Source: Actinomycetota bacterium (GTDB lineage: Bacteria > Actinomycetota > Aquicultoria > Aquicultorales > Aquicultoraceae). From it: a stretch of 64,000 nt of DNA. The position numbers and the translations under genes were made by a program. The stretch covers positions 1-64,000 of the forward strand of contig JAGXSZ010000007.1 in the NCBI GenBank assembly GCA_018333515.1, read 5' to 3'. The notes under the pieces are model-generated. The model was not told where the DNA came from, did not search any database, and worked only from the letters and a program-made list of their open reading frames with translations. The first letter of the stretch is position 1. The number at the start of each line of letters is the position of its first letter. Shown piece after piece: positions 49,499 to 63,335 of the stretch.

Positions 49499-51400
49499 CT
49501 ACAGCAACAGCTGGGCGAGTATGCCGCCTATGCCGAAGGCGAGCACCCAGCTTCCCAGCCAAATCGGAATCGCTTGCCGAAGGCCCCGTTCTTTGAGAAG
49601 TATCATCAGCGAGGCTATGCAGGGCACAAATAGCGTTATGGTTACGAGCGCTACGAGCGTCTGCATCGGCGCCAGGCTCATCTCGAAGAGACCCGCCGCT
49701 CCGAAGTCCCGTCTGACGAGACCCATGACAAAGGCGGTCGACGCCTCTTTGGGAAGTTTCAGCCAGCCGGTCGTGAGCGGTGCCCATGCGTTCTGCCAGG
49801 CGGTCAGCGCGTGGGTAATCTTCATTATCGAGACTACGAGCGCGCCGATGGCGAACCATGGAATCGCCTCCTTCATGAAGTAGTAGGTGCGGGTCGCGGC
49901 CTTTCGTGTCACGTTATCCGGGCGCGGCAGGCGCAACGGCGGCAGGTCGATGAGGAGCGGAGCCGATTTGCCCGGCAACACCCTCGCCAGGATCGTTCCG
50001 ATGATAGCCAAGGTCAAAAAGACGATGCCTATGTATAGCAGGATGTAAAATCCGCCGATTGCCGCTAAAAGAACGGTGATGACGCCGAGCTGCGCCGAGC
50101 AGGGAATCGCCCACTGCAATATCGCGGTGGCGATAGTCTTCTCGCGTTCGGTTCCCAGCAGCCGCGTTGTAATCGTTGCCATGGTCACACAGCCGAAACC
50201 CAAGATCAGGGGGACGACGGCGCGGCCGTTTAAGCCTATTGCGTTTAGCGCTCGGTCGACCAAGGTCGCCAGCCTCGGCAGGTAGCCCGAGTCCTCCATC
50301 AACGCCAGAGCCAAGTAAAAACCGAGCACCAACGGCAAGAGCAGCCCTAAAAGGTAGGTGGCGGTCATGGTCAGCACGCCAAACTCACCGATAAGAATTT
50401 CGCCCAACGGCGTGCTCTCGCTGACAATCGGCTCGACGATGCCCCGGATAAACGGTTCCCAGTAGCCCTGCATGACGGCCTCTTCGGTGATGCCTACGAT
50501 GGTTTGCGCGACGAAGACCGCCACCAATTGATAGAGTCCGTACAGAACCAGGGCGAGGAAGGGCACACCGGTAAGCGGGTTCAAGACGAACCGGCCCATC
50601 TTTTGACGCACCGTCTCCGCGAGCGCCTTCTCTCTTACGACATGGCCGACAATATCGTTGACCCGCTCGCGACGCCTGACGTAAATTATCTCTCGGTCGG
50701 CGGCGGGTTTTATGCCGTGACGCGCCGCGACATGTTCGTCGCCTTCGAGAACCATCAGCGCCTCCGGCTGCGAGCCGACGCGTGAGAGCATCTCATGCAG
50801 CTTTTTGTGGAGGAAGGGGTCCTGGTTGCCTTCGCGTGCGTCATCCAGCGCGGCCGTTACCTCGGCCAAACCGCGCTTCGTTACGGCTACCGTCGGAACG
50901 ACAGGCACTCCCAGGAGGTCGGAGAGGAGGTCGACATCGATCGCTATGCTCTGTTCCTCGACTTCGTCCATAAAATTAAGGGCGACCACCATCGGCAGGC
51001 CCATATCGATAAGTTGCAGCGTCAAGAAGAGGTCGCGCTCGATATGGACCGCGTCGACGACATTTACGACCATGTCGGCGCTTAAAATTATATCGCGGGC
51101 GACGATCTCCTCGTCGTTGAAGGAGGAGACCCCGTAGATTCCCGGGGTGTCGACTATGGCGTCATCGCCGTAGCGCGCCTGCGATATTTCAATTGTCGTT
51201 CCCGGATAGTTCGAGACATCGACGTATAAACCCGAAAAGTAATTGAAAAAGACCGATTTGCCGACATTGGGGTTGCCCGCAAGGACTATTTTCTTGCGGC
51301 CCTCGGGCAGATTTATAGCGAGGGAGCCGGCATGGGAGTGGCCCCCATGAGTCGTCTTGACGGCGCCCAGCTCTTTCTTAGCCGTTTTTTCCTTGGACAT
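49499..51400 (-). CDS. feoB: Ferrous iron transporter FeoB
   Basis: 633 residues. His-containing N-terminal extension (THGGHSHAG), then the G domain GNPNVGKSVFFNYFSG with VSNYPGTTIE, DTPGIYG and NFMDE. Gate regions follow, with GFGCVTMATITTRLLGTERE and the second IPCSAQLGV in place of the usual GFGCNVPA pattern. It imports Fe2+ across the membrane. It overlaps feoA by 23 bp. Confidence 0.94.
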   Translation of the reverse strand: MSKEKTAKKELGAVKTTHGGHSHAGSLAINLPEGRKKIVLAGNPNVGKSVFFNYFSGLYVDVSNYPGTTIEISQARYGDDAIVDTPGIYGVSSFNDEEIVARDIILSADMVVNVVDAVHIERDLFLTLQLIDMGLPMVVALNFMDEVEEQSIAIDVDLLSDLLGVPVVPTVAVTKRGLAEVTAALDDAREGNQDPFLHKKLHEMLSRVGSQPEALMVLEGDEHVAARHGIKPAADREIIYVRRRERVNDIVGHVVREKALAETVRQKMGRFVLNPLTGVPFLALVLYGLYQLVAVFVAQTIVGITEEAVMQGYWEPFIRGIVEPIVSESTPLGEILIGEFGVLTMTATYLLGLLLPLVLGFYLALALMEDSGYLPRLATLVDRALNAIGLNGRAVVPLILGFGCVTMATITTRLLGTEREKTIATAILQWAIPCSAQLGVITVLLAAIGGFYILLYIGIVFLTLAIIGTILARVLPGKSAPLLIDLPPLRLPRPDNVTRKAATRTYYFMKEAIPWFAIGALVVSIMKITHALTAWQNAWAPLTTGWLKLPKEASTAFVMGLVRRDFGAAGLFEMSLAPMQTLVALVTITLFVPCIASLMILLKERGLRQAIPIWLGSWVLAFGIGGILAQLLL

Positions 51401-51620
51401 GCGCGCTCCTTTCGACCGTGATTGTTTTGGCCAACTCGCGGCCGATCGCGATCTCTTGACGGTTTTTTCTCAACACCACCGGGCCGAAGGGGACCTTAGT
51501 GTGGCATATGACGCTGCTGCCTTCACCGATACCAAATCGGATGAACTGCGTCTTCGCCATATCGTCAGGAATCTCTTTGATCACTACCTCTTCGCCGGTT
51601 TTAACTTGATCTAGACACAT
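51378..51620 (-). CDS. feoA: FeoA SH3-like partner of FeoB
   Basis: 80 residues from the ATG at 51620 (GAGGAG upstream); the longer ATG at 51656 would run through the Fur-like box. SH3-like core: LDQVKTGEEVVIKEIPDD and GSSVICHTKVPFGPVVLRKNRQEIAIGRELA. Supports FeoB function. Confidence 0.88.
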   Translation of the reverse strand: MCLDQVKTGEEVVIKEIPDDMAKTQFIRFGIGEGSSVICHTKVPFGPVVLRKNRQEIAIGRELAKTITVERSAHVQGKNG

Positions 51621-51639
51621 AACACGCTCCTCGTCTATC

Positions 51640-51660
51640 TGAGATTGTGACTCCATCTCA
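51640..51660. promoter_or_regulatory. Fur-like box upstream of feoA
   Basis: TGAGAT and ATCTCA separated by nine bases, between fur and feoA. Arms match the half-sites of the box upstream of fur, so iron-dependent repression of feoAB is likely, though spacing is looser than the classical site. Confidence 0.5.
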
Positions 51661-51682
51661 ATCCTTTATCAAAAAAATATCC

Positions 51683-52123
51683 CTATGCTTTAACTGCAAG
51701 CTTACACTTGGCGCACCAGCCATAGATGTTCAGGCTGTGCCCGATTGCCTTGAAGCCCGCTTTTTCACACGCCCACTCTTGAAGCTGCTCGATGAGCGGC
51801 TCCTCGAACTCCCACACCTCGCCGCAGACCGTGCAGACGAGATGGTCGTGGTGGGGATGGCCCGCCGTATGCTCGTATGCGGAGCGACCCTCGCCGAGGT
51901 CTATCTTTTCCACCAGGCCGCTCTCGACCAGAAGGTCGAGGGTGCGGTAGACCGTTGCGCGGGATGCTTTGCTCCCGGCGCTCTTCAGTTTCTTGAGCAC
52001 TTCCTCGGCGTCGAGGTGGTCGTGGCTAGAGAAGACCTCTTCGGCAACCGATTTGCGCTCCGTCGTAAAGAGCAGCCCTTTTGTCTCTATAAACTTCATA
52101 AACTGCTGCGTTTCAGGCCTCAT
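51683..52123 (-). CDS. fur: Fur-family metalloregulator
   Basis: 146 residues. Winged helix with VLKKLKSAGSKASRATVYRTLDLLVESGLVEK read across residues 41-72. The metal-site motif GHPHHDHLVCTVCGEV and the C-terminal CAKC give the structural zinc Cys4. Located just upstream of feoAB in the same direction, consistent with control of iron uptake. A PerR-type sensor cannot be excluded. Confidence 0.93.
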   Translation of the reverse strand: MRPETQQFMKFIETKGLLFTTERKSVAEEVFSSHDHLDAEEVLKKLKSAGSKASRATVYRTLDLLVESGLVEKIDLGEGRSAYEHTAGHPHHDHLVCTVCGEVWEFEEPLIEQLQEWACEKAGFKAIGHSLNIYGWCAKCKLAVKA

Positions 52124-56194: not shown

Positions 56195-56815
56195 CTACGG
56201 CAAGCCGCGAGTGAGCAGCTCGTCGTAGTGGTCGTCGAAGTTAAGCGTTGGCGGTGCGTCGACATGACCGTCACTACCAGCCGTTTGACCTGAATTCCAG
56301 ATGTTTGGATTATGGCAATCCAAACAAACGCTGTCCAGGTCGTGTGCTGTATAGGTCGTCGTTCCATCGAACCTACCTTCACCGACGCCAACCCAGGTGT
56401 TGTTGTCAAAGTTCAGACCGAAGAGGTCGTCTTTGAGCATTTTCCAGCCGAGTGTGCGGTGCGGCCAGCTGAAGCCGTCGTCGGCGCAGAGCGCGGCGAC
56501 CATCGCCGCAGTGAACGCCGTATTCGTGGTTCTCCAGTCGCTAGTCCACTCGGTCTTGCGGGATTTCTTGAAGTAACCGATTGTGGTTGAGTCAGCCGCC
56601 CCTCTGCTCTGGGCAAAAAGGTTTGCGTGGCCTGCACTGGTCTGTGCCTGCGTAAACAGCGACTTGTTCGTGCTGTTGTCCGCCGCTATTGCCGCAGACG
56701 TTGTAACAGCGCCGGTGCTGCTCGTGTTATGACACGTTGCGCACCTGCTTGAGCCCTTGTGGCAGTTACGGCAGTGCGGGCCGAAATTCTGTTCATCCTC
56801 CGGATTGAACACCAT
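56195..56815 (-). CDS. Three-haem c-type cytochrome module lacking a signal peptide (locus 1)
   Basis: 206 residues with CRNCH, CATCH and CLDCH haem-binding motifs. It begins MVFNPEDEQNFGPH with no export signal, although c-type haem is attached outside the membrane. It lies in the same frame as the upstream four-haem gene, separated only by UGA and three codons. It may thus be the C-terminal part of one seven-haem protein. Alternatively it is made by re-initiation at the ATG (GAGGT lies just upstream). The end DELLTRGLP is shared with the locus 2 paralogue. Confidence 0.75.
   Translation of the reverse strand: MVFNPEDEQNFGPHCRNCHKGSSRCATCHNTSSTGAVTTSAAIAADNSTNKSLFTQAQTSAGHANLFAQSRGAADSTTIGYFKKSRKTEWTSDWRTTNTAFTAAMVAALCADDGFSWPHRTLGWKMLKDDLFGLNFDNNTWVGVGEGRFDGTTTYTAHDLDSVCLDCHNPNIWNSGQTAGSDGHVDAPPTLNFDDHYDELLTRGLP
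56791..56810 (-). other. Hairpin 14 nt downstream of the in-frame UGA (locus 1), SECIS-like
   Basis: On the minus-strand mRNA, GUUCA/UCC pairs with GGA/UGAAC around a GGA loop with one bulged A. The loop starts 24 nt after the UGA. This shape resembles bacterial selenocysteine insertion elements, but it also encodes conserved residues (FNPEDE), so it may be coincidental. Confidence 0.35.
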
Positions 56816-56824
56816 AGACCGACC

Positions 56825-58399
56825 TCAGTGCCTTGGCTGCACATCGTGGCCGTATGCCAGGTCGTAATCGGCCTTCGAAGGCGTATCGGTTCCGCTCCGT
56901 AACGCTCGATCCTCACTGAAGAGCGGCGCCCGGATGGTGTGCTTGCCCGCGTTACCGTCGTGACAATCGGTGCAGAAGTCGCTTACGCTCCAGACGTTAC
57001 ACGGAGCACCCACGTCCGCCTGCGAGCTTGTACTGTCATAGTTTTCTATGAACTTGTCCACCGGTGCTACCGTGCCCGAGTTTTCCCAGACTCTTAGCGC
57101 CTCTGAACGGCGCACATTGAAACCGAGGAAGCCCGCGGGCTTGCCGTTACTCAAGCCGTAGTTTGTCGTTACACCCAGAGTGTTAGACCTCTTCCACAGG
57201 GTTCTGGCGTTACCCATAGGAGAGTCCCAGTCGATCGGGATCTTGTTGACCGGATACGACGTCGTGTTGTCGAACTCGTAGAGATTAGCCGTGATATAGT
57301 CCGGAATCTCTTGACCAGCCGTAATTGTCGCAACACGCTCCGCTCCCAAGATTGGCAAGCCGAGTGAGTCGAAAGCGATATTCGCCATCGCTGTGCCGCC
57401 GAGCGTCAAGATGCCGCTGCCTACGTTGGGTGTAGTCGTCGAGGCGATCTCACGGTCAGGGTTCTTGATCAGAAGCCAGGAGCCTGAGAGCCAGAACGGT
57501 TTGTTGGTGCGCTGCGGGTTGTTAATTTTCTTCAGCGCGTTAATCCAGTCGTCACCACCGGAGTTTACGATACCGTAAACTTTGCCGTTCAGGACTTGAT
57601 TGCTCTGCGGCGTCACCGCGCTGTCTACTACAGCGCGTATGCCGACCGCATCTCCGGCGTTGTTGAAGCCGAGCATGCGCGCCGGGTTGGCGTGCGGGCT
57701 GTGGCAGTCGAAGCAGGAGAAACCGCCCTGCCAGTAGTTAGGCGTAAACGCGGGGTAGGTGTCGTCCGGCGCTTTCCACTTGCCGGTGCTTATGCCGAAG
57801 CCCATGGTGTGGCCGACGTTGTACTCGGTGGTAAAGGCGTCGTCGTTGTCCATCTGGATGTTGTATCCGCTTCCCGCGCCGGTGCCGTGGCACCAATCGC
57901 ACGCCTCGAACCTGGTGTCCGAGCGGAGCAACTTGAACTTGCCCGCCGCGCGGTGGACCGCGTGGCACTCACGACACCGGTGGGTGGACGTGAGGTAGCC
58001 GCCGTGCGGGCCTGATGCAAACACGACGTTGCTGGGGTCGGTAGCCCCTGTTACGGCTAGACCGGTTGCTTGGTCAAACTGCGCGCCGCCCGCAACGTAG
58101 TCCTGGGCGTCGTTGTAGTTGTAGCCGTCAACGCCGGCCGTATACGGGCTGTTCCAGGTGCCGTACCTGTGGGTGCTTGACGCGTAAATACTCGTTGGAG
58201 TCGAGCCCGCATAGACGCCGGAGACGGTGGCTGCGCCTTCTTCCCAGTAGCGATAATCTTTTGCCGCCCCGCTATGACCCGTAGGCGTATACGAGGTAGG
58301 TGGGATTACGGTCGTCCCATCTCCCGCCGCCGCAAACGCCGCGCTGCTCGCTGTAAGGACGAGACTGGTAGTCATAAGAACTACAAATCTTTTCCTCAT
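56825..58399 (-). CDS. Four-haem c-type cytochrome with signal peptide (locus 1)
   Basis: 524 residues from the ATG at 58399, chosen because AAAGGAGGTGATAGAG precedes it; the open frame extends 156 bp further upstream without a ribosome site. The signal peptide is MRKRFVVLMTTSLVLTASS, cleaved near AFA-AAG. Haem motifs are CRECH, CDWCH, CFDCH and CTDCH. Between them are long segments without haem, unlike compact small cytochromes. Probably extracellular or cell-envelope electron transfer. It ends at UGA after GHDVQPRH, followed in frame by a three-haem module. Confidence 0.88.
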   Translation of the reverse strand: MRKRFVVLMTTSLVLTASSAAFAAAGDGTTVIPPTSYTPTGHSGAAKDYRYWEEGAATVSGVYAGSTPTSIYASSTHRYGTWNSPYTAGVDGYNYNDAQDYVAGGAQFDQATGLAVTGATDPSNVVFASGPHGGYLTSTHRCRECHAVHRAAGKFKLLRSDTRFEACDWCHGTGAGSGYNIQMDNDDAFTTEYNVGHTMGFGISTGKWKAPDDTYPAFTPNYWQGGFSCFDCHSPHANPARMLGFNNAGDAVGIRAVVDSAVTPQSNQVLNGKVYGIVNSGGDDWINALKKINNPQRTNKPFWLSGSWLLIKNPDREIASTTTPNVGSGILTLGGTAMANIAFDSLGLPILGAERVATITAGQEIPDYITANLYEFDNTTSYPVNKIPIDWDSPMGNARTLWKRSNTLGVTTNYGLSNGKPAGFLGFNVRRSEALRVWENSGTVAPVDKFIENYDSTSSQADVGAPCNVWSVSDFCTDCHDGNAGKHTIRAPLFSEDRALRSGTDTPSKADYDLAYGHDVQPRH

Positions 58400-59203
58400 C
58401 TCTATCACCTCCTTTCCTTGCGGGATTTTATAAGAATGCCCGAACAAGGGCGTAGGGGAATGGCGAGAAAAGGTCTCGTTCTCAAAATTGAACAAGTTAT
58501 AGACAGTCCTTGGTCTTCGATACAGGTCGTCGGCCATATATCTCCTGAAAAACAATAAAGCGACTAACCGATTATGCGATTAGTTCGATCCTTGCCGTGA
58601 CGAATACTACAATTCTTGTAAAAGGCTTCACATAATTGCCGGCCACTTACATGTAAAACCAAGGAAGAAATGCGGCTTGACCGCAAGCGTTCTTCCCTGT
58701 GCCTGCTCGAACCCGGCGCTATATCATGGCGCCGACCCGGCATGCACAAGGCCACATACTAGAGGAAGCATTATTGAGTTGACTTTGGGCGGTAGATGCT
58801 TAAACAGCAAGCAATCGTCGTAATTATATGGGGAGCGTGAATAATAGTCAAGCACTCTTTGCGCGATAGATTACTATAAAATGCTCCGCTGACCAGCGAT
58901 TATCTGCAGCTCGTGGTCCATACAGCCAATGATACGATGTCTCAATGGCTGTATGCAGCGATGGTGCGCCGGGCCAAGTCCAGCCGAGCTTTCGCGGAAA
59001 TACTTATGAGATTGCGTCTCACAGCAAGATATTTTAGAAGACCGGAGTAATTTTCGATATTATGGATGGGCCTGCTAAACCAGCTCTTTTTGTTGTTGAT
59101 GTCTTTGGCGCCTGGTATAATTATTTAGGGGTTCCCGTGCCCTTTTAGGAGGGCTTGTTCGCCAATAGGGGCTTGCGAACCCGGTAAGCTTGGAGGTGTT
59201 GTT
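58400..59203. other. Intergenic region between divergent cytochrome and spermidine-synthase genes
   Basis: Holds no credible gene. An inverted repeat with 14-base arms and one mismatch (CATACAGCCA at 58919 on, and TGGCTGTATG ending 58955) may be an operator or terminator. GGCGCC-type inverted repeats occur near 58720-58735. Promoters were not clear. Confidence 0.5.
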
Positions 59204-61118: not shown

Positions 61119-61829
61119 TTACGGCAAGCCTCTCAGCATGACGTCGTCGTCCATATCGTCGTTCGGGTCAGCCAGATTGTCAACGTGATCAGACGCACTC
61201 GTCGCGTTCCAGATCGTCGGGTTGTGGCAATCCAAGCAGACGCTGTCGAGGTCGTGGGTCTTGGCGTTGTAGCCGCCGAACGTCCTGGTCTCGCCGACGC
61301 CTATGACTTTCGACGTACCATCGGTCAAACCGATTACGTCGATACCAAAGAGGTCGTCTTTGAGCATCTTCCAACCGAGCGTGCGGTGCGGCCAGCTAAG
61401 ACCATCGTCGGAACAGCTTACGTTGAGTTTGTTCGGGTCGGTTCTCCACCCGCTATTAGCGCCCCAACTGGTCGACCTGCTCTGCTTGATGATACCCGTT
61501 TGCAGGTACGCATCGCTGATTGCTTGCGAGATCTGGTTAGCCTGGCCATCGCTTGTTTTCGTCAGGTTGTACAATGTGTACGCCTTAGAGTCCGCGTGGT
61601 TCGGGTCGCCCATAAGGATCCTGAAGAACTGCGTGATGTCCGAGCGCCACATGCCGGTTTTGTAATCGACGTTCGACGCGGCGAGGTCTTCCTGCTGTTC
61701 GCGCGTGAGCGAGAGCGACGGATTTACGCCATCGTTGGCGTTATGGCATCCACCGCAGCCGCTTGAGCCTCTGTGGCAGTTACGGCACCTTGGTCCACCT
61801 AGTTGTTCATCCTCCGGATTGAACTGCAT
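61119..61829 (-). CDS. Three-haem c-type cytochrome module lacking a signal peptide (locus 2)
   Basis: 236 residues with CRNCH, CGGCH and CLDCH. It begins MQFNPEDEQLGGPR and ends DDVMLRGLP, matching the locus 1 module throughout (DGLSWPHRTLGWKMLKDDLFG). There is no export signal. It sits in frame with the upstream four-haem gene, separated by UGA and three codons. The stretch before the ATG (AGCCGCCGC) has no Shine-Dalgarno, which makes independent initiation less likely than in locus 1. Confidence 0.75.
   Translation of the reverse strand: MQFNPEDEQLGGPRCRNCHRGSSGCGGCHNANDGVNPSLSLTREQQEDLAASNVDYKTGMWRSDITQFFRILMGDPNHADSKAYTLYNLTKTSDGQANQISQAISDAYLQTGIIKQSRSTSWGANSGWRTDPNKLNVSCSDDGLSWPHRTLGWKMLKDDLFGIDVIGLTDGTSKVIGVGETRTFGGYNAKTHDLDSVCLDCHNPTIWNATSASDHVDNLADPNDDMDDDVMLRGLP
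61805..61824 (-). other. Hairpin 14 nt downstream of the in-frame UGA (locus 2), SECIS-like
   Basis: Same 20-nt sequence and spacing as at 56791-56810. The conservation could reflect protein constraint or recent gene conversion rather than RNA function. Confidence 0.35.
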
Positions 61830-61838
61830 GCGGCGGCT

Positions 61839-63335
61839 TCAGTGCCTGACGTTGACATCGTGGCCGTAGGCCAGGTCGTAGTTGCCTCTCCAATTATTTT
61901 CGACGGCGCCTTGACCCCTCAGCGCGCGATCCTCACTGAAGAGCGGGGCCTTCGCGGTGTGGAAGCCCGCGTTACCGTCGTGGCAGTCGGTGCAGAACTC
62001 ATCGAGAATGAGTGACCTGCAGAACGGGTTCCTCGCGTCGTAGCCGTAGTCGGTGTTCGGCGCCGGCATGTCTGGTGCGCCACCCCGGAAGTCCTCGTCC
62101 CACAAGCTTGCGCTACCGATTGGGTTGTTCCAGTCGGTCGGCACCTTGTTGACCGGATACGGTGTGCTCGTATCGAACTCTAAGAGCTTGGCGCTGACCG
62201 CATCAGGGATTTCCTGGCCGGCAGTAATCGTGATATCGGGATCTCTAACAAAGCTACCGCCTTTGACAAAGTCTGCCGTATTCACTTTGCTCGGGTCTAC
62301 GTTCGGCACCCAGCTCTCGATACCGCTCGTCACCGTGGTGTTAATTGTCGCTATCTCGCGGTCGGGGTTCTTGATAAGAAGCCAGCTGCCTGCGAGATAG
62401 TACGGTTTTGCCTTCGGAAGCGGCATACCGAGCGCCGGTACGAAGTAGCCCATGTTTTGGAGCGTGGTGGTGTTTTCTCCAGAAAAGCCCTTTCCGCCCT
62501 TGGTAAACATGTCGTGGCCGGGGTTGCCGATGTTGTATACCATACCGGTCGTCGTATCAACGATTGATGGAATCGGCACGCCCTTTGCGTCATAGCCCAT
62601 GAGGCGCGCCGGGTTGGCGTGCGGGCTGTGGCAGTCGAAGCAGGAGAAACCGCCCTGCCAGAAGTTAGGCGTAAATGCCGGGTAGGTATCATCCGGCGCT
62701 TTCCACTTGCCGCCCGAGATGCCGAAGCCCATGGTGTGGCCGACGTTGTACTCGGTGGTGTAAGCGTCGTCGTTGTCCATCTGGATGTTGAAACCGCTTC
62801 CCGCGCCGGTGCCGTGGCACCAATCGCACGCCTCGAACCTGGTGTCCGAGCGGAGCAACTTGAACTTGCCCGCCGCGCGGTGGACCGCGTGGCACTCACG
62901 ACACCGGTGGGTGGACGTGAGGTAGCCGCCGTGCGGGCCTGACTCGAAGCGCATATTAGGCATGGTCATCGTACCAAAATTGTACACTTCGTACCCAGGG
63001 CCATATATCGGGTACTGAACATTATATGTGCCTCCCGAGCCCACCTGGGTTCCGTCTTTGGTGTAGTCCTGGGCGTCGTTGTAGTTATAGCCGTCAACGC
63101 CGGTCGTATACGGGCTGTTCCAGGTACCCCGTAGGTGGGTGCTGCTGCCGTAGCCCGTGAAGACCTTGCCGGTCGTCACACCCTGCTCGCGCTCGTTCCA
63201 GTCCTTATAGCCGAGACTATACTCGTTAGCGACGATATTGCCCGGAGCGCCTGCGGGCTCCTGTTTCGCGAGCGCCATGCCGCCCATCGCGAACAACAAC
63301 GCCAAAGCCATCATTACAACCAATGCTTTTTTCAT
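61839..63335 (-). CDS. Four-haem c-type cytochrome with signal peptide (locus 2)
   Basis: 498 residues from the ATG at 63335 behind AAAAAGGAGGTG. The signal peptide starts MKKALVVMMALALLFAMGG and is cleaved near ALA-KQE. A second in-frame ATG with its own AAAGGAGGTG lies at 63383 and would add 16 residues. Haem motifs CRECH, CDWCH, CFDCH and CTDCH match locus 1. The ORF ends in UGA after GHDVNVRH, followed in frame by a three-haem module. Likely envelope electron carrier. Confidence 0.88.
   Translation of the reverse strand: MKKALVVMMALALLFAMGGMALAKQEPAGAPGNIVANEYSLGYKDWNEREQGVTTGKVFTGYGSSTHLRGTWNSPYTTGVDGYNYNDAQDYTKDGTQVGSGGTYNVQYPIYGPGYEVYNFGTMTMPNMRFESGPHGGYLTSTHRCRECHAVHRAAGKFKLLRSDTRFEACDWCHGTGAGSGFNIQMDNDDAYTTEYNVGHTMGFGISGGKWKAPDDTYPAFTPNFWQGGFSCFDCHSPHANPARLMGYDAKGVPIPSIVDTTTGMVYNIGNPGHDMFTKGGKGFSGENTTTLQNMGYFVPALGMPLPKAKPYYLAGSWLLIKNPDREIATINTTVTSGIESWVPNVDPSKVNTADFVKGGSFVRDPDITITAGQEIPDAVSAKLLEFDTSTPYPVNKVPTDWNNPIGSASLWDEDFRGGAPDMPAPNTDYGYDARNPFCRSLILDEFCTDCHDGNAGFHTAKAPLFSEDRALRGQGAVENNWRGNYDLAYGHDVNVRH

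Follow-up and report, generated by a model that had tools for sequence, protein, structure and literature searches.

We find that an in-frame UGA codon joining two open reading frames (ORFs) is very probably decoded as selenocysteine (Sec), yielding one exported seven-haem c-type cytochrome; on sequence grounds we put the probability of this reading at about 0.95. The gene occurs twice in the window (the whole 64,000-nucleotide stretch of DNA analysed here), and in this subsurface bacterium two adjacent annotated genes would encode one electron-transfer protein if the UGA is Sec. The evidence that can be read directly from the letters consists of the decoding machinery encoded in the genome, the exchange of Sec and Cys at a single aligned site, and a putative SECIS hairpin that goes with the UGA.

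In the first copy, the upstream ORF (56825–58555, minus strand) has a usable ATG at 58399, a signal peptide identified by inspection (MRKRFVVLMTTSLVLTASSAAFA; 58331–58399, minus strand), four CxxCH motifs and a terminal TGA at 56825–56827. The codons GGT CGG TCT ATG follow in the same frame and lead into the downstream ORF (56195–56815, minus strand), which carries three CxxCH motifs and is without a signal peptide. A direct reading of the minus strand thus bears out the sequence-only reading, which had described a four-haem ORF joined in frame by UGA to a three-haem ORF lacking an export signal; indeed, no version of the gene has a signal peptide at that point. With the UGA read through, the gene (56195–58399, minus strand) encodes 734 amino acids with Sec as residue 525, in the motif PRH-Sec-GRSM, and its true stop is TAG. 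The second copy (61119–63335, minus strand) is arranged in the same way: its product is 738 amino acids long from the ATG at 63335, is 55–57% identical to the first, and has its UGA at 61839–61841 (minus strand) within the motif VRH-Sec-SRRM, at the aligned position. Neither copy contains a further in-frame stop. A third copy elsewhere in the genome (contig C22, 281–2455) shares this arrangement.

Full-length homologues support the joined reading. Over its whole length the first copy is 89% identical to a UGA-bearing homologue and 64–70% identical to full-length paralogues, of which one has UGA and one Cys. All full-length homologues keep the pattern of the signal peptide (a K/R start, a hydrophobic core and AxA), and seven CxxCH motifs are present in nearly every full-length family copy, with eight in two of them. 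Several CxxCH motifs are combined with an export signal, the latter recognised by inspection, as expected of multihaem c-type cytochromes. The C-terminal sequence Gly-Leu-Pro is invariant just before the stop in all complete aligned homologues from Aquicultoria and Coriobacteriia (codons at 56198–56206 and 61122–61130 in the window, minus strand), and it is possibly a sorting or assembly tag.

UGA is generally a stop in this genome, as the sequence-only reading had noted, and TGA ends other ORFs in the window. A mechanical count finds it at the end of 9 of 40 long window ORFs, a figure that takes in the two cytochrome ORFs as well as some that are unlikely to be genes. The true stops of 22 family genes are TAA (15) or TAG (7) and never TGA, although TGA does terminate other genes of this genome.

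G000, the genome that contains the window (2.33 Mb, 100% complete), encodes SelA, SelB, SelD and tRNA-Sec, the set expected of a bacterium that makes selenoproteins. Matches to selA and selB score 622 and 381 bits, respectively, and these two genes adjoin that for tRNA-Sec (selC, anticodon UCA) on contig 23. The same contig carries selD, which has an in-frame UGA of its own, and the fdhA gene of this genome has the usual in-frame UGA together with a GGCC-GGUCU-GGCC hairpin. Because selA, selB and tRNA-Sec are accompanied by a UGA-bearing selD and fdhA, we conclude from gene content that the organism has Sec machinery and further probable selenoprotein genes. A search for selA, selB and selC had been proposed as a check on the original observation; all three are present, as is selD. 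More widely, selA is found in every near-complete Aquicultoria genome that carries a UGA copy, the sole UGA carrier without it being a 77% complete genome (G001), and also in two named Coriobacteriia genomes.

Searches of relatives' genomes and of named genomes find the family in Candidatus Aquicultor and in other Aquicultoria related to it, with several paralogues per genome, and more distant members in Coriobacteriia. The aligned position of Sec525 is occupied by UGA in 19 Aquicultoria copies and by Cys in 14, plus one Thr in a remote copy, and by UGA in 14 and Cys in 2 of the Coriobacteriia copies. Taking both classes together, 33 UGA versions stand against 16 Cys versions (TGC or TGT) at the same residue. 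The alignment of homologues, likewise suggested beforehand, thus shows a single long ORF with either UGA or Cys at the site. The Cys versions are single ORFs encoding one continuous protein, in keeping with the earlier proposal that readthrough would give one exported seven-haem protein. Strong conservation extends to either side of the site, and it follows that the downstream part is translated within the one protein; an in-frame UGA aligned with Cys and flanked by conserved sequence is the pattern expected of a selenoprotein gene. Judged from these alignments, the sharing of a UGA position by 33 homologous genes in two classes is far beyond chance. On a protein tree built with the Sec residue masked and its neighbours retained, Sec and Cys have been interchanged at least 6 times.

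Family paralogues stand three in a row in two genomes (L065, G010 contig 7; L059, G007 contig 43), and in G007 Sec and Cys forms adjoin. A remote seven-CxxCH relative from Candidatus Aquicultor secundus (L113, 454 amino acids) is the copy with Thr at the Sec/Cys position.

A candidate bacterial SECIS hairpin lies a short way downstream of the UGA in both window copies. In the first (56790–56811, minus strand) the stem forms around UGUUCA-A-UCC / GGA / GGA-UGAACA, supported by the fold, by frozen codons and by pair counts; in the second (61805–61824, minus strand) it is supported by the fold and by its agreement with the constraints of the bSECIS model. The apical loop GGA lies 23 nt after the UGA in each case. 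The top of the hairpin is formed by the codon string AAT CCG GAG GAT, encoding Asn-Pro-Glu-Asp, and counts of pairs indicate that the lower stem covaries. This string is present in 19/19 Aquicultoria UGA versions compared with 1/14 Cys versions, the others using mixed codons. For Asn, AAT is the less used codon in these genes (31%), and of 139 degenerate conserved columns in the UGA set (counting the Sec column) 16 use a single codon, the Asn-Pro-Glu-Asp codons being four neighbouring ones. The lone Cys copy with the frozen string (L054, G005 contig 12) still has AATCCGGAGGAT and is possibly a recent Sec-to-Cys change carrying a relic SECIS. Across independent Sec/Cys pairs the hairpin codons go with UGA in 6/6 (sometimes 5/6) cases (sign test, p = 0.031). 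The peptides encoded at the hairpin site differ in Coriobacteriia (for example AIGTDSDG, PIGTDGDG, ILNPGDS, TLNPGGS and VSGQDTDG), yet a hairpin with compensatory pairs occupies the same place.

The bSECIS model specifies a loop of 3–9 nt, a stem of 4–16 bp, a G in the first two loop positions, a distance of 16–37 nt from the UGA and a minimum free energy of ≤ −7.5 kcal/mol (PMC13188914). The four constraints applied hold for 29/29 distinct family UGA contexts and for fdhA, and for 5/16 Cys contexts, which satisfy them by chance. For single hairpins the shuffle z-scores are weak (−0.65 to −1.6), and the RNA case therefore rests on comparison rather than on any one fold. The GGAGG within the hairpin was also considered as a Shine-Dalgarno sequence and rejected: the AUG directly after it has no spacing and lies in another frame, and Coriobacteriia hairpins are without GGAGG.

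Three other accounts of the UGA were weighed. It might be a real stop, in which case the three-haem ORF would be translated on its own, through coupling or re-initiation, and exported by an unusual route; re-initiation with such a route was an option raised by the sequence-only reading. Both window copies do have an ATG three codons past the UGA, closely preceded in the first by GAGG, but this ATG is not conserved (it is CTA in one UGA copy and shifted in others) and none of the homologues has a signal peptide at the junction. The Cys versions, in which the protein is continuous, weigh strongly against it, and it leaves unexplained both the frozen synonymous codons and a hairpin limited to UGA versions; we consider it highly improbable. 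Insertion of some other residue at the UGA, such as Trp or Cys by a near-cognate tRNA and with no need of selenium, seems just as improbable. The hairpin could in principle be a general readthrough signal, but the alternative residue in close relatives is always Cys and never Trp, the genome encodes complete Sec machinery along with other UGA genes, and the hairpin fits the bSECIS model of SelB binding. Lastly, a gene split by a recent nonsense mutation, also among the options first listed, or by an assembly error is effectively excluded: such loss does occur in the family, as a decayed copy with several stops attests, but UGA stands at the same residue in 33 versions from two classes, the frames are kept on both sides, the hairpin is retained and comes and goes with the UGA, and a further break, downstream, is seen in just one UGA copy (G008 contig 133). 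The decayed copy (G018 contig 11, 2867–4143; L193, L201) contains TGA, TAA and TAG stops, and the intact copy of that genome has Cys. UGA recoding, which had headed the original options, is thus the one that the data favour, and specifically recoding as selenocysteine.

Under selenocysteine decoding, SelA, SelB and tRNA-Sec of the organism would insert Sec at the UGA, directed by the hairpin in the codons just downstream, and the mechanism would be the standard bacterial one. The predicted product is a c-type cytochrome with seven haems, in which Sec, within the motif Arg-His-Sec-x-Arg-Met, lies between haem motifs 4 and 5. Its export and haem loading would presumably follow the usual paths of the Sec system and of cytochrome c maturation. 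Exported multihaem cytochromes generally serve in electron transfer, and for this reason the protein probably transfers electrons in the periplasm or outside the cell.

The Sec side chain may be redox-active or ligate a haem, with Cys able to take its place. The preceding residue (His 524) is His in every UGA version seen and is not His in 7/16 Cys versions, which suggests that His and Sec act as a pair, with the caveat that relatedness confounds this count. The sole other family-invariant cysteine outside the CxxCH motifs is Cys638 (codon at 56486–56488, minus strand), which is invariant in three alignments (23/23, 16/16 and 20/20), is kept in the remote Thr copy, and is the only non-haem cysteine in two named Coriobacteriia proteins. 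Compatible roles for Sec would include a distal haem ligand, an active-site selenol beside an open haem, or one half of a Sec-Cys638 redox pair. Its position beside the conserved His, shortly before haem motif 5, and the loss of this His in several Cys versions raise the tentative and rather unlikely idea that Sec525 is an axial haem ligand, forming a natural selenolate-ligated c-type haem in which Cys is an acceptable substitute, or alternatively that it forms a redox couple with Cys638. AlphaFold2 models have pLDDT values of 31.8 (full length) and 36.0 (C-terminal part), too low for Sec to be positioned with respect to a haem, and a search of the PDB with the family profile matched no chain.

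Closest in kind among known selenoproteins is ExtKL (NF040886; Geobacter GSU2937-2936), a five-haem cytochrome of ~49.5 kDa with a predicted Sec (PMC5877670). Like the present family it is a multihaem c-type cytochrome whose gene is annotated in two parts, and it comes from metal-reducing anaerobes (PMC5877670), but it differs in size and haem number (~49.5 kDa and five haems, compared with 734 amino acids and seven). With model NF040886 (cut-off 250 bits), the matches in G000 lie outside the window genes and far below the cut-off, and family members give no match at E ≤ 1; the seven-haem family is outside ExtKL as judged by this one model. We saw no extHIJKLMNOPQS cluster beside the seven-haem genes. 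An inventory from 2026 lists 119 prokaryotic selenoprotein families, its haem proteins being ExtKL, an octahaem tetrathionate-reductase-type cytochrome and a GSU2204-type barrel. The octahaem family (TIGR04315, as annotated in GenBank) is likewise multihaem with one Sec, but has eight haems rather than seven and gives no match to family members at E ≤ 1. The GSU2204 family CXXCH protein (NF041027) combines CxxCH with Sec, but is an outer-membrane beta-barrel of the MtrB/PioB type, and does not match family members. The Pfam models PF09699 and PF14522 (paired CxxCH and cytochrome c7-like) match weak single stretches around haem motifs, and no model in Pfam or NCBIfam covers the whole seven-haem protein. 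A tblastn search against plasmids gave no match, and searches of a library of open-access papers found no description of a seven-haem Sec cytochrome family.

These proteins therefore appear to form an undescribed family of selenoproteins, seven-haem c-type cytochromes marked by an Arg-His-Sec motif and absent from the 2026 inventory. The novelty lies in the family itself, in its breadth and in the repeated switching between Sec and Cys. The family is large, with several paralogues per Aquicultoria genome in addition to the Coriobacteriia members, and would add to the 119 families listed. Standard annotation splits each UGA gene and loses three haems. Since Sec and Cys alternate between closely related paralogues, in some cases of one genome, the family provides natural matched pairs bearing on the role of selenium in multihaem electron carriers. 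The cytochrome genes neighbour a spermidine-synthase-domain gene and a GGDEF/GAF gene. Genes for feoB, feoA and a Fur-family regulator lie at 49499–52123 in the window, ~4 kb from the first copy, and an O-antigen-ligase gene and a GAF-GGDEF gene stand in between.
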